A stretch of DNA of 64,000 nt, taken from the NCBI RefSeq assembly GCF_903064525.1, contig NZ_LR797830.1, positions 682,001 through 746,000 of the forward strand, given 5' to 3'. The position numbers and the translations under genes are program-made. The notes under the pieces were generated by a model that worked only from the letters and a program-made list of their open reading frames with translations, was not told the origin of the DNA and searched no databases. How positions within the stretch are numbered: the first letter of the stretch is position 1; each line of letters starts with the position of its first letter. Origin of the DNA: Methylacidimicrobium sp. AP8. Lineage in GTDB: Bacteria; Verrucomicrobiota; Verrucomicrobiia; Methylacidiphilales; Methylacidiphilaceae. Below are positions 12,281-19,531 of the stretch, piece after piece.

Positions 12281-13815
12281 ATGGCGGGCGATTGGTTCCG
12301 GCGCTGCTGGCTCATGCCCGTTCTTTGCTTCCTGGCGGGCGGCGTGCTTCCGTCCCGAGCCGAAGCGGCGGGGGCATTCGGGATGGGTGACGGAATTCTT
12401 GGTCCGATAGGATGGCAGGGAATAGCCTTCTTCGCGGCGGAAGCGCCAAGCCTGGAAGCGCGGGTGAACGGGCTCGAGGCCTATATCCTCAACGCGGATC
12501 CTTCCGGGAGCAAGGTGAGCGGGGTGCCGGGACCGGGACACAACGCTTGGCTGATGACCTCTGCGGCCCTGGTGCTCTTCATGACACTGCCGGGCCTCGC
12601 TCTTTTTTACGGCGGCCTGGTCCGATCCCGGAACGTCCTGTCGGTCTTGGCGCAATGCCTGGGGATTGCGGGGCTCGTGACGATTCTCTGGTGGGCGGTG
12701 GGCTACAGCCTGGTCTTCGGGACCAACTTCAGCCAGAGCCCGATAGGCCCGTTTCTGGGCGGCACCGAGTTCTTTTTTCTCAAGGGCGTCGATTCGGTTC
12801 CCAACACCGGATACTCGATCTGGGTGTCGCAGAACGTCTTCTGCATGTTCCAGCTCATGTTCGCGATCATCACGCCGGCCCTGATCCTGGGCGCGATCGC
12901 CGAAAGGATGAACTACGGGGCATTGCTCCTCTTCATCGCCTTTTGGATGCTGGGGGTCTACTTTCCGCTCGCCCACATGGTCTGGGGAGCCACCGGCCTG
13001 ATGAACGGCGCGTTCAACGCGGCGGCCCGAATTCCCGCGATCGATTTCGCCGGAGGGACCGTCGTGCACATGTCCTCGGGCTGGTCGGGACTGGTTCTCT
13101 GCCTGCTGCTCGGGCGGAGGAACGGCTATGATAAGGAGCCGATCGTGCCGCACAGCATAGTTCTCTGCATGGCGGGAGCGGCGATGCTCTGGGTCGGATG
13201 GTACGGCTTCAATGCGGGAAGCGCCGGAGCGGCGGACGTAATTGCAGCCAATGCCTTCACCACGACGACCCTGGCCACCGCGGTGGCGTCGTTCACCTGG
13301 GGAATGCTCGAATATGCCTTGAAAGGAAAGCCAAGCGTCCTCGGGTTCAGCACCGGGGCCGTGGCCGGCTTGGTCTGCATTACGCCGGCCTGCGGGTATG
13401 TCGATTCGACTGGAGCGGTGATCATCGGAGTGGCGGCCGCGGTGGTTCCCTACCTAGCTTGCGTCAAGCTCAAGAAGGCCTTGGGATATGACGATGCGCT
13501 CGATGCGTTCGGAGTGCATGGGGTGGGGGGACGCTTGGGGCATTCCTGACCGGGGTCCTGGCGACGGCCAAGGTCAACGGCAACCTGAGCAACGAAGCCG
13601 TAGCGGGGAAGAACGGGCTGGCCGCCCTCGTCAGCCATCACGCGCTTTATTGGGCGCAGCTCAAGGCGATAGTGATCACGATCGGGCTGTCGGTGGGCAT
13701 GAGCTTGGTCTTGGCGCTGCTGGTGAGGCTCTTCGTAAGCCTGCGCGTGCCGGCCGAGATCGAGACGCAGGGCCTCGACATCGTGCAGCACGGCGAGCAG
13801 GGCTACGCGATGTAG
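12281..13815 (+). pseudogene. amtB: Ammonium transporter AmtB, frameshifted near the 3' end
   Basis: An Amt-family ammonium channel. After a signal peptide (MPVLCFLAGGVLPSRAEA) and a short periplasmic segment come membrane helices with the twin pore histidines in GGTVVHMSSGWSG and DAFGVHGVGG. The reading frame breaks in the G6 tract at 13525-13530: as written it ends at 13549 (422 residues), but the -1 frame continues without stop to 13815 with GILTG-type helix 11 sequence (LTGVLATAKVNGN) and the regulatory tail ETQGLDIVQHGEQGYAM. One extra G would restore a 511-residue protein. Sequencing error, mutation or slippage are all possible. The start at 12281 has an AAAGGAG; an in-frame ATG at 12041 with AGGAGG is the alternative. 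Confidence 0.88.
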
Positions 13816-14034
13816 AGCGTGGCGGGATCGTTTTCGGCGGATTCTTCGAGCGAGGTGCCGGGATCGGCCGGCGGTGTCGCCGCGCCGCTCCGGATTTGGC
13901 CGGCAGCCGGCTAAAAGATAGCTTTCTTCGCGGCCGCCATCCCGATAGAAAAGGGTAGCCAAAAATCCTGGAAATTACGTTATACTTCTGACTAATATTC
14001 GTTCCGCCCGTTGTAAAAAAAACGGGAAAAGAGA

Positions 14035-14065
14035 TTGACTCGGCGGGGGTACGATCGCCTGTAAT
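14035..14065 (+). promoter_or_regulatory. Candidate sigma70 promoter of nrdAB
   Basis: TTGACT (14035-14040) and TGTAAT (14060-14065) lie 19 bases apart, each one base from consensus. The predicted start falls within the first NrdR box. The spacer is slightly long. This sits in the 313-base gap between amtB and nrdA, which otherwise holds only the NrdR boxes and a short hairpin. Confidence 0.5.
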
Positions 14066-14066
14066 T

Positions 14067-14114
14067 GCCCAATATTTTGTGGTATAGGACCGACATAGGC
14101 ACAATATCTTGAAC
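14067..14114. promoter_or_regulatory. Tandem NrdR boxes upstream of nrdA
   Basis: Two 16-base elements, CCCAATATTTTGTGG (within 14067-14082) and CACAATATCTTGAAC (within 14099-14114), match the NrdR consensus acaCwAtATwTwGtg. Their start points are 32 bases apart, three helical turns, the arrangement NrdR needs. They lie over and just after the predicted transcription start and end shortly before the ribosome site of nrdA, fitting repression by NrdR-dATP/ATP. Confidence 0.8.
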
Positions 14115-14128
14115 ATCTGGAGGCAGCC

Positions 14129-16987
14129 ATGATTTCCCTGGAAGACCCCTGGCAGATGGAGTTGATCGGCATCGATCCTCTCCCGAAGAAGACCTTCACG
14201 GTTCGGAAGCGGAACGGCACGGTCGTCGCGTTCGAGCCCGAGCGCATCTCTTGGGCCATCGAACGAGCGTTTCGCGCCGAACAGGGAGTGCCGGCGGAAA
14301 AAGGCCTCTCGGAAGAGACAAGACAGGCGGTGGAGAAGGTGGCGCGGGCCGTGGTGCGGCGCGCCGTCGCCGCGGCCGTCGCCGGAGAGACGCTCGAAGT
14401 CGAATTGATCCAAGATTGGGTGGAGGCGGCTCTCATGGAAGCGGGCTACCACTCGGTGGCCCGGCGCTACATCCTTTACCGGGCGGAACGCCGGAGGGCC
14501 CGCACGTTGCGCGCGGCGACCCTATCCGGCACGGCTCCGCTTACCTTCGTGCTGCGATGCGGCGAACGGGTTCCCTTGGATCCGGAAGGCCTCAGGAGGG
14601 AGCTCGAGGATGCCTGTCGGGGCCTAGAGGATCGCTGCTCGTGGGAGAGCTTGGCCGAAGAAACGCTGCGGAGCCTGTACGATGGAGTAACCGAAGAAGA
14701 GATCGACCAGGCGATGATTCTGGCCGCCCGCTCCCGAGTGGAGCGGGAGCCGGCCTATACCTATGTCGCGGCACGGCTCCTGTTGGCCAAGATCTATCGG
14801 GAAGTCTTGCCCGAGATCCGCGCACGCGAAGAGCTGGAGGCGGTGCACAGGAAGTTCTTCCCGATCTCCGTCCGCCACGGCGTCGACGTCGGCCGACTTT
14901 CGCCCGATCTATTGGGCTTCGATCTCGAAAAGTTGGCCGGTGCCCTCCGGTTCGAGCGCGACCGGAACTTTACGTACATGGGCCTGCAGACCGTATACGA
15001 TCGCTACCTGCTCCACCACGAGGAGCGGAGGATCGAGACTCCGCAATACTTCTGGATGCGTGTGGCGATGGGGCTCGCCCTTGCCGAGAAGGAGAATCGC
15101 GAAGAGCGCGCTATCGAGTTCTACGAGCTGCTCTCCTCCTTTTTGTTCCTTTCTTCGACGCCGACCCTATTCAATGCGGGGACAAGGCATCCTCAGCTTT
15201 CGTCCTGCTACCTGCTCACCGTCTCCGACGATCTGGACGGAATCTTTCAAGTGATCTCCGACAACGCCCGGCTTTCGAAGTGGGCGGGAGGCTTGGGCAA
15301 TGACTGGACCAATGTCCGGGCCACCGGCTCCTTGATCCGGGGGACCAATGGGCGGAGCCAGGGAGTCATTCCCTTTCTCAAGGTCGCCAACGACACCGCT
15401 GTCGCCGTCAATCAGGGAGGGAAGAGGAAGGGCGCCCTCTGCGCCTACCTGGAAACCTGGCACCTCGACATCGAGGACTTCCTCGAGCTGCGGAGGAATA
15501 CGGGGGACGAGCGGCGCCGGACCCCGGACATGAATACGGCCAACTGGATTCCCGACCTCTTCATGAAGAGAGTCGCCGAAGGAGGGAATTGGACGCTCTT
15601 CAGCCCCAGCGACGTCCCGGATCTTCACGATCTCTACGGAAAGGCCTTCGAGCGGCGGTATTGCGAGTATGAGGCGATGGCGGATCGCGGGGAGATTCGC
15701 AACTTCCGGCGCGTCGCAGCCGTCGCTCTTTGGAGGAAGATGCTCACGATGCTCTTTGAGACGGGCCATCCGTGGATCACCTTCAAGGATCCGTGCAACA
15801 TCCGATCTCCCCAGGATCATGTTGGGGTGATTCACAATTCCAATCTCTGCACCGAGATCACGCTGAATACTTCGGCGGACGAAACCGCGGTCTGCAACTT
15901 GGGCTCGATCAATCTGGCCGCCCATGTGAAGGACGGCGAACTCGACGAGGATCGGCTGGCCAAAACGATTCGCGTGGCGGTCCGGATGCTCGACAACGTC
16001 ATCGATATCAATTTCTATCCGACCCCGGCGGCCAGGAACTCCAATCTGCGCCATCGGCCGGTGGGCCTCGGCTTGATGGGCTTCCAGGATGCGCTCTACC
16101 GCCTGAAGATCCCCTATGGGAGCCAAGAGGCGGTGGAATTTGCGGATCGGACGATGGAATCCATCGCCTACCATGCGCTTCTCGCATCGTCGGACTTGGC
16201 GAAGGAACGAGGAGCCTATGCCACCTTCCGGGGCTCGAAATGGGACCGCGGCCTCTTGCCTATTGATACGCTCTCTCTGCTGGAAGAGGAGCGCGGCGGG
16301 TATCTTGAAGTGGACCGAACGGTGCGGAAAGATTGGGAGAAGGTCCGGGCGGCGATTCGGCGGAATGGCTTGAGGAACAGCAATCTGCTCGCGATCGCGC
16401 CGACCGCGACGATTTCGAACATCTGCGGGGTCTCCCAATCGATCGAGCCGACCTATAAGAATCTTTTCGTGAAGTCGAACCTCTCCGGGGATTTCACGAC
16501 GATCAACAGCTATCTCGTCGAGGAGCTGAAGCAGGCGGGGCTGTGGGATCAGGAGATGGTGGACGATCTCAAGTTTTACGACGGGTCGGTTCTGCCTATC
16601 GAACGCATTCCCCGAGAGATCAAGGAAAGGTACCTCACGGCCTTCGAGCTCGATCCCTATTGGCTGATCGAGTGTGCCAGCCGGCGCCAGAAGTGGATCG
16701 ACATGGCGCAGTCGCTCAATCTCTACATCGCCGAGCCCAATGGGAAGAAGCTTTCCGACATGTACCTCCTGGCTTGGCGGAAGGGTCTCAAGACGACCTA
16801 CTACTTGCGGGCTGTGGCAGCGACCTCCGTGGAAAAATCGACCCTGGATATCAATGCTCGAGGGCTGCAACCACGGTGGATGAAGAGCGTCAGCCCCTCG
16901 TCCCGTGTCCGCATCGAGCGGGCGGCGGAGGAGCGCAACGGGAGGGCCTGCTCTCTCGATAATCCCGAATGCGAGAGTTGCCAATGA
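14129..16987 (+). CDS. nrdA: Class I ribonucleoside-diphosphate reductase alpha subunit
   Basis: The catalytic subunit that reduces ribonucleotides to deoxyribonucleotides. 952 residues, longer than E. coli NrdA because the N-terminus appears to hold two ATP-cone-like regulatory domains (about residues 18-115 and 130-230). The catalytic barrel shows [26 protein letters not shown] (active-site Cys and Glu) and [17 protein letters not shown]. The C-terminus ends in PECESCQ, the redox-active Cys pair that accepts electrons from thioredoxin. A CTGGAGG ribosome site precedes the ATG. It is followed after 131 bases by nrdB. Confidence 0.97.
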
Positions 16988-17118: not shown

Positions 17119-18180
17119 ATGTCCTGCTGCTACTCGTCGGAGAGAGGTCGGGAGCCCTACGACCTCACCAGGAGATTCAACGCGGAGGAAAAGCGGCTGA
17201 TCAACTGCCGGACGGTGGACGTGAATCAGCTCATGCCCTTGAAATACAAATGGGCCTGGGAGCACTACCTGAACGGGTGCGCAAACAACTGGCTGCCCTC
17301 CGAGGTGCCGATGCAGAGGGACATCGAACTCTGGAGGTCCGATAAGCTGAGCGCGGCGGAGAGGCGTGTGATCATGAGAAACCTCGGCTTTTTCGCCACC
17401 GGCGAGAGCCTTGTCGGCAACAATATCGTGCTGGCGATCTTCAAGCACATCACCAATCCGGAAGCGCGCCAGTACCTGCTGCGCCAAGCCTTCGAGGAGG
17501 CGGTCCATACTCATGCTTTCCTCTACATCGTCGAAAGTCTCGGCCTCGACGAGCGCGAGGTGTTCAACATGTACCACGAGATCAACTCGATCCGGAACAA
17601 GGACAGCTTCGAGATGGCCTTGACGGAGGACATCCTGCGCGAAGGCTTTTCGACCGAAACCGAGGCCGGGATTCGGCAATTTCTCAAGAACCTGGTGGGA
17701 TTTTACGTGATCATGGAGGGAATTTTTTTCTACAGCGGGTTTGTCATGATTCTCTCCTTCCACCGGCAAAATCGAATGACCGGAATCGGCGAGCAGTTTC
17801 AGTACATTCTCCGGGACGAGACGATCCACTTGAACTTCGGCATCGACTTGATCAACGGAATCAAGGAGGAAAACCCGGAGGTCTGGACCCCGGATTTTCA
17901 AGAGGAAATCAGCGAAATGATCGCGCAGGCGGTCGAGCTCGAGGCGCTCTATGCGCAGGACTGCCTGCCCAACGGGATTCTCGGATTGAACGCCGGCTTG
18001 TTTCGTGACTACGTCCAGTATATCGGAGATCGGCGATTGGAGCGGATCGGCTTGAAGGCCCGATACGGTTCGCGCAATCCTTTCCCGTGGATGAGCGAAG
18101 CCATGGATCTCCTTAAGGAGAAGAACTTCTTCGAGACCCGCGTCACCGAGTACCAGCACGGAGCGCTGCTTCAGTGGTGA
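17119..18180 (+). CDS. nrdB: Class Ic ribonucleoside-diphosphate reductase beta subunit (Phe at radical site)
   Basis: The radical-generating, metal-binding subunit. Ligands are Glu96 (GESLVG), Glu127 and His130 (EEAVHTH), Glu200 (IMEG), Glu234 and His237 (RDETIH). Four residues after His130, where class Ia has the radical Tyr, stands Phe134. All seven positions equal Chlamydia trachomatis R2 numbering plus seven (E89, E120, H123, F127, E193, E227, H230), and the first ligand is Glu, not Asp. This identifies a class Ic enzyme, which in Chlamydia uses a Mn(IV)/Fe(III) cofactor instead of a tyrosyl radical. Length 353 is typical. lysA starts four bases after the stop. Confidence 0.96.
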
Positions 18181-18184
18181 ATAG

Positions 18185-19531
18185 ATGCATCGCTTCCGTT
18201 ATCAAGGGGACGTTCTTTTCGTAGAGGAGGTCTCGACCGCCGTCCTTGCCGAGAAGTACGGCACTCCGCTCTACGTGTATTCGGCCGGCACGGTTCTCGA
18301 TCACTACGACCGGCTCGTCGCCTCCCTGCGCGCGCTCGATCCGCTGGTCTGCTACGCGGTCAAGGCCAATTCCAATCTGGCGCTGCTGCGCCTGCTCGCA
18401 GCTCGCGGTTCCGGTTTCGACCTAGTCAGCGGCGGAGAACTGTACCGTGTCCTTCAGGCCGGCGGGGATCCCGCCCGGTGCACGTTCGCCGGCGTCGGCA
18501 AGACGGACCGGGAGATCGAAGAAGCTTTGGAAGCCGGCATCTACAGCTTTATCGTGGAGAGCCGGGAAGAGCTGAGCGCTATCAATAGGGCGGCCGTGCG
18601 CTTGCGGAAGAAGGCCCCGGTCGCTCTGCGGGTCAACCCCGATGTGGGCGCCAGGACTCACGCCAAGATCAAGACCGGGGTGGCGGAGAGCAAGTTCGGC
18701 ATCCCGGCCGAAGAGATCGAAGAGGTCTATCGGGAACTGCCCCGTTTCTCCCATCTTCGGTTGCGCGGGATGCAAATCCATATCGGCTCGCAGATCCGCG
18801 ACGTTGAGCCCTTCGCGGAGGCGGTCGGCCGAGTGATTCCCTTGGTGGCGATGGCGCGCGATCGGTTCGGCGCGGAGTTTTTCGACATCGGGGGAGGGCT
18901 CGGAATCGCTTACGAGGAGGCGCTGCAGAGCGGAGATCCCGGCTGGTGGGAAAGCAAGACCGGTTGGGCCACCCCCGCCCGCTACGCGCAGCGGCTGCTT
19001 CCCTTGCTTAGCCCGCTCGGGCTACGCACCATTGTGGAGCCGGGCAGGCTGCTTGTCGGCAACGCGGGCATTCTCCTCACGAGGGTGCTCTATCGGAAAG
19101 ATGGGCCGAGCCGAAAGTTTGTGATCGTCGATGCGGGAATGAACGACCTGATCCGCCCGGCCCTGTATGGATCCTTTCACCAGATTGTACCGGTGATCCG
19201 GCGCGGGGGGGATCCGATCGAGGCCGACGTTGTGGGGCCCGTTTGCGAGTCGGGCGACCGGTTCGCCGAGTCGCGGCGGATGCCGCCGGTAACGGCGGGC
19301 GATCTTCTGGCGATATTCAGCGCGGGAGCATACGGATTCTCCATGGCTTCCCAGTACAACTCGCGGCCGAGGCCGGCCGAGGTTCTCGTGGAAGGGGCGA
19401 AGCACCGGCTGATCCGCCGGCGGGAGAGCTATGAAGATTTGGTCCGGGGCGAGCCGGGCGCAGAGGAAGAGCCCGGCGGCCCGCAAGGCGAACGGACACC
19501 AAAGGAGAGTCATGAGCTGGCGAATGGATAG
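18185..19531 (+). CDS. lysA: Diaminopimelate decarboxylase
   Basis: A PLP enzyme converting meso-diaminopimelate to L-lysine. The PLP lysine lies in CYAVKANSN near residue 60, with the family glycine-rich FFDIGGGLGIAYE segment and the C-terminal CESGDRF. Length is 448, slightly long because of a charged tail. Gene spacing to nrdB suggests co-transcription, although the pathways are unrelated. Its 3' end overlaps the next gene by 20 bases. Confidence 0.95.
   Translation: MHRFRYQGDVLFVEEVSTAVLAEKYGTPLYVYSAGTVLDHYDRLVASLRALDPLVCYAVKANSNLALLRLLAARGSGFDLVSGGELYRVLQAGGDPARCTFAGVGKTDREIEEALEAGIYSFIVESREELSAINRAAVRLRKKAPVALRVNPDVGARTHAKIKTGVAESKFGIPAEEIEEVYRELPRFSHLRLRGMQIHIGSQIRDVEPFAEAVGRVIPLVAMARDRFGAEFFDIGGGLGIAYEEALQSGDPGWWESKTGWATPARYAQRLLPLLSPLGLRTIVEPGRLLVGNAGILLTRVLYRKDGPSRKFVIVDAGMNDLIRPALYGSFHQIVPVIRRGGDPIEADVVGPVCESGDRFAESRRMPPVTAGDLLAIFSAGAYGFSMASQYNSRPRPAEVLVEGAKHRLIRRRESYEDLVRGEPGAEEEPGGPQGERTPKESHELANG

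Follow-up and report, generated by a model that had tools for sequence, protein, structure and literature searches.

The nrdAB locus and its ribonucleotide reductase

The window analysed here (the whole stretch of 64,000 nucleotides from Methylacidimicrobium sp. AP8) contains the ribonucleotide reductase (RNR) genes nrdA and nrdB and, directly upstream of nrdA, two palindromic boxes that are set between promoter-like hexamers and the ribosome-binding site (Table 1).

Table 1. Features of the nrdAB region, with positions counted from the first nucleotide of the window
Feature	Position	Strand	Basis
-35-like TTGACT	14035-14040	+	read from sequence; conservation of AGATTGAC region
-10-like TGTAAT	14060-14065	+	read from sequence; conservation
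NrdR box 1 (predicted), GCCCAATATTTTGTGG	14067-14082	+	pattern and matrix scans, genus alignment
16-bp inter-box spacer	14083-14098	.	genus alignment
NrdR box 2 (predicted), GCACAATATCTTGAAC	14099-14114	+	pattern and matrix scans, genus alignment
Ribosome-binding site GGAGG	14119-14123	+	read from sequence
nrdA, 952 aa, ATP-cone 1, weaker ATP-cone 2, RNR all-alpha and barrel domains	14129-16987	+	ORF, domain and structure matches
nrdB, 353 aa, class Ic-type radical subunit (Phe134)	17119-18180	+	ORF, domain and structure matches

The best structural match of NrdA is 5im3 (1195.5 bits, aligned over 24-952), which we take to be the NrdA of Pseudomonas aeruginosa. Three ATP-cones are found genome-wide, of which NrdR carries one (78.7 bits) and NrdA two (71.5 bits for the first and 34.3 bits for the second; cut-off 25.8). 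These profile scores bear out the two ATP-cones that had been proposed for NrdA from the letters alone, the second being weak (34.3 vs 71.5 bits). The cone motif reads VRKRNG in the first copy and VLRCGE in the second, from which the KRNG-like motif has been lost. In P. aeruginosa NrdA the second cone copy is reported, in an extract of PMC9669993, not to bind ligand. The weak, motif-changed second cone, taken together with this precedent, suggests that dATP most likely controls the enzyme by way of the first cone only.

NrdB matches 1syy at 1.6e-176, and its Phe134 is aligned to chain residue Phe127 of this structure, which is the Chlamydia trachomatis class Ic subunit according to part of PMC5794259. 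Class Ic is recognised by a Phe replacing the radical Tyr in NrdB, and the presence of Phe134 at the radical site, together with the alignment to 1syy, supports the assignment of the enzyme to class Ic made in the sequence-only reading. An enzyme of this class would also be expected to have a Mn/Fe cofactor. Comparison of NrdA with the genome gave one match, with no second class I or class II RNR, and a class III RNR was not found when the genome was searched for it; one RNR is detected in the genome.

Some features of the neighbouring genes were also observed. An ORF at 18185-19531, diaminopimelate decarboxylase-like by eye, starts 4 bases past the end of nrdB and may share its transcript. 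The gene lying upstream of nrdA resembles an ammonium transporter by eye and shows a frame change near a G run (window positions ~13515-13550); the corresponding stretch stays in one frame in a relative (locus L003), and the change here is either a real frameshift or a sequencing error.

The box pair and the NrdR protein

The two boxes at nrdA have a start-to-start distance of 32 bp and a spacer of 16 bp; box 1 starts one base after the -10-like TGTAAT, and 14 bases separate the end of box 2 from the nrdA ATG (14129). These coordinates agree with the initial description of two NrdR boxes with starts 32 bases apart lying between TGTAAT and the nrdA ribosome site. The same description called them near-consensus, which holds for the core, since CWATATNTNG is complete in both boxes, and is generous for the flanks: against the NrdR box consensus, ACWCWATATNTWGTGT, box 1 matches at 13/16 positions and box 2 at 12/16 by hand count. 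Each box matches its own reverse complement at 10/16 positions. Besides, C 14070 and G 14079 in box 1, and C 14102 and G 14111 in box 2, fit the conserved GC pairs nine positions apart described in PMC9110341. A full-length search for box pairs allowing up to 3 mismatches returned zero matches and missed the nrdA pair itself, because this pair carries 7 mismatches in all.

Related to uniqueness, the core pattern CWATATNTNG-N19-23-CWATATNTNG occurs once in the 2,300,970 bases of the genome (its backward control gave 0), and a pair pattern with a looser core again gave one genome match only, at nrdA. The search for other box pairs that had been suggested as a check thus returned none besides the nrdA pair in the 2.30-Mb genome with the core pattern. 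No box pair was found in the ~500 bases upstream of nrdR, where the best summed score was 0.98 vs 1.69 at nrdA.

The regulator on which the proposal depends, and whose absence the sequence-only reading had named as fatal to it, is encoded by a single nrdR gene in the genome. Its zinc ribbon (G000:C1:1156280-1156405) scores above the Pfam cut-off, and the protein of 160 aa also exceeds the cut-off of the NCBIfam NrdR model TIGR00244 (175.7 bits, cut-off 124.65). Residues 1-147 align without gaps with the solved NrdR chain 9fvr. In Streptomyces coelicolor NrdR the DNA contacts are made by D15, R17 and arginines 12, 26-29 and 37 (PMC9110341), and by hand count the translation keeps D15, R17, R12, R26-R29 and R37.

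Palindromic core boxes, their spacing, a place upstream of an RNR gene and an nrdR gene in the genome are the sequence features by which a tandem NrdR operator is recognised, and all of them are found here. The pair is very probably (about 0.93) the operator through which NrdR acts on nrdAB. Two palindromes could also bind another dimeric nrdAB regulator, given that further regulators of RNR operons exist, Fur being named beside NrdR in the abstract of PMC4898720; such a regulator is nevertheless a very improbable occupant of this site, as the core sequence and length of the boxes, like their spacing and position, are those expected for NrdR, a full NrdR is encoded in the genome and no second such pair was found there.

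Conservation, chance and the promoter

Sixty genomes (its own included) were searched with NrdA, giving a match in 54, and 30 of the matching loci (L002-L031) were examined. Six of the seven same-genus loci (L002-L007) extend far enough upstream, and the contig of the seventh, L008, ends at the gene. The shuffle count leaves aside L008 and L030, whose contigs stop at the gene or close to it, and L029, which was scanned later from a guessed start. The pair scan used a weight matrix written by hand from the NrdR consensus.

The best pair in the 400-base region before nrdA is reached by 0/300 dinucleotide shuffles. The pair stands at the same place in 6/6 same-genus loci, ~61-62 bases before the ATG (0/300 shuffles in each), with a box step of 32 in the present locus and of 31 in each of the remaining five. 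Over these six loci 9/16 columns are invariant in box 1, 12/16 in box 2 and 0/16 in the spacer. The strict core pattern is present in 3/7 same-genus genomes; the other same-genus genomes having upstream sequence carry more diverged boxes at the same place. A chance AT-rich resemblance within a promoter region would agree with the behaviour of single boxes, which are not enriched in the window when up to 3 mismatches are allowed (8 found vs a shuffle mean of 6.56, with 34/100 shuffles reaching 8). It is hardly credible for the pair, whose score none of the 300 shuffles attains and whose boxes are conserved across six genomes while the spacer between them has no invariant column.

The other genera of the family have a pair upstream of nrdA in 5/6 loci (0 or 1 of 300 shuffles), and the sixth, L014 (genome G008), shows one good box and no clear partner (16/300 shuffles). 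For L019-L031 the rows of 400 bases are no test, because those bases fall inside a longer gene, and 17 loci were rescanned from guessed starts; among them only L017 and L018 score at least 1.5 at a step of 30-33. These two are likewise the only more distant loci with a pair in the 400-base shuffle scan. Spacers of 24-27 bp, scanned in the same 17 loci, gave a best score of 1.44 (L014). No pair score above 1.2 at a step of 30-33 was found in the upstream regions of L019-L029. On the other hand, nrdR was found in 56 of the 60 genomes searched. Many of the more distant loci show no pair above nrdA, and therefore a pair visible to the matrix cannot be predicted from the occurrence of nrdR; this mismatch in the distant loci counts against a simple order-wide reading.

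Other observations were made in these relatives. Single good NrdR-like boxes that have no clear partner at the usual distance lie at ~-118 in L014 (0.82) and ~-201 in L017 (0.91), counted from guessed starts. In family f4 (L019-L029) the NrdA frames open several hundred bases further upstream (1045-1135 aa) and may hold an extra N-terminal cone. One same-family genome has a second nrdA-like gene in pieces, one of them with an internal TAA (G007:C1:1256676-1258042), just upstream of its intact nrdA (1259724-1262501).

The promoter beside the boxes is proposed from reading and conservation. Position 14035, where the sequence-only reading began its feature, is the first base of TTGACT, a hexamer that its text did not mention. 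The spacer from TTGACT to TGTAAT is 19 bp here and, by reading, 18 bp in L003. In the AGATTGAC region (14032-14039) 7/8 columns are invariant over the six same-genus loci, and in the TGTAAT hexamer 4/6 are invariant in the genus. A fixed-rule promoter scan gave 0 promoters in the nrdA upstream region; its rules accept spacers of 16-18 and require the second hexamer to have A as its second base, which excludes both the 19-bp spacer and TGTAAT, and for this reason the promoter call rests on reading and conservation. A transcription start about seven bases past the -10-like hexamer would sit within box 1.

A second promoter is possible at TTATAC (13980-13985), which takes the form T(T/A)ATAC across the six same-genus loci, ~147 bases before nrdA. 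If this upstream promoter drove nrdAB, the boxes would still be real and NrdR would act as a road-block instead of occluding the start site. The conservation of the hexamer near -147, with 6/11 columns invariant at 13980-13990, speaks for this arrangement; it is unlikely all the same, for no convincing -35 accompanies the hexamer in this genome and the TTGACT beside the boxes is better conserved (7/8 columns).

Predicted control of nrdAB and comparison with known systems

NrdR binding, DNA bending, the nucleotide response and repression are extrapolated here from studied NrdRs. In the published model, as given in part of PMC9110341, NrdR loaded with ATP forms dodecamers unable to bind DNA, and with dATP plus ATP it forms a tetramer, which occupies both boxes and introduces a bend in the DNA. 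Four tested NrdRs bind spacers of 14-17 bp (in an extract of PMC12051234), a range that includes the 16-bp spacer found here. NrdR, encoded elsewhere in the genome, would become a tetramer when its ATP-cone holds ATP and dATP, and each box would be bound by one pair of zinc ribbons, three helical turns apart. Because box 1 begins one base past the -10-like hexamer, the tetramer on both boxes would bend the DNA over the start region. With plentiful dATP, NrdR on the boxes would block transcription and lower nrdAB expression, and with ATP alone in NrdR it would be released from the DNA; dATP may separately inhibit the enzyme via the first ATP-cone of NrdA.

This arrangement is textbook and ordinary, is found in many bacteria and brings no new principle; that the ATP-cone both controls RNR expression and regulates RNR activity is already stated in the available text of PMC9110341. 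The local particulars are the single detected operator and the lack of a detected box pair at nrdR itself. A tentative further reading, given slightly less than even odds, is that NrdR is a single-target regulator in this organism: it would act at a single operator and on a single RNR, with its own gene lacking a box pair and the detected ATP-cones confined to NrdR and NrdA. If this were true, dNTP supply would be governed by a single closed dATP loop that acts at two points, transcription and the enzyme, with neither autoregulation nor alternative RNRs, and would be simple for measuring how control is shared between both. With one operator and one RNR detected, the organism is convenient as a simple study case. 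A literature search combining NrdR with Methylacidiphilum found no paper, and the predicted NrdR control of a class Ic RNR, with its clear footprint, is documented here for one more lineage.

The operators of S. coelicolor nrdRJ and nrdAB consist, as here, of two palindromes separated by about three turns of the helix; the distance between boxes is 31 bp there (in part of PMC9110341) and 32 here. In both systems each box has conserved G-C pairs at a distance of nine positions (PMC9110341). However, nrdR itself is under an operator in S. coelicolor (nrdRJ), whereas no pair was found upstream of nrdR here. Chlamydia has a class Ic NrdB and an NrdR ortholog, as does the present organism; the chlamydial class Ic nrdAB and its NrdR, CT406, were reportedly treated by Case et al. 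in 2011. The NrdA of C. trachomatis has three ATP-cones (in an extract of PMC9669993) and the present one two. In Escherichia coli the operators of nrdAB, nrdHIEF and nrdDG are pairs 15-16 bp apart that overlap the polymerase site, according to excerpts of PMC12176259, and the same would apply here; E. coli has three RNR operons, and here one RNR is detected. P. aeruginosa NrdA (5im3) shares with this protein the possession of two ATP-cones, whereas its RNR is of class Ia (in part of PMC9669993) and the NrdB described here is class Ic-like.
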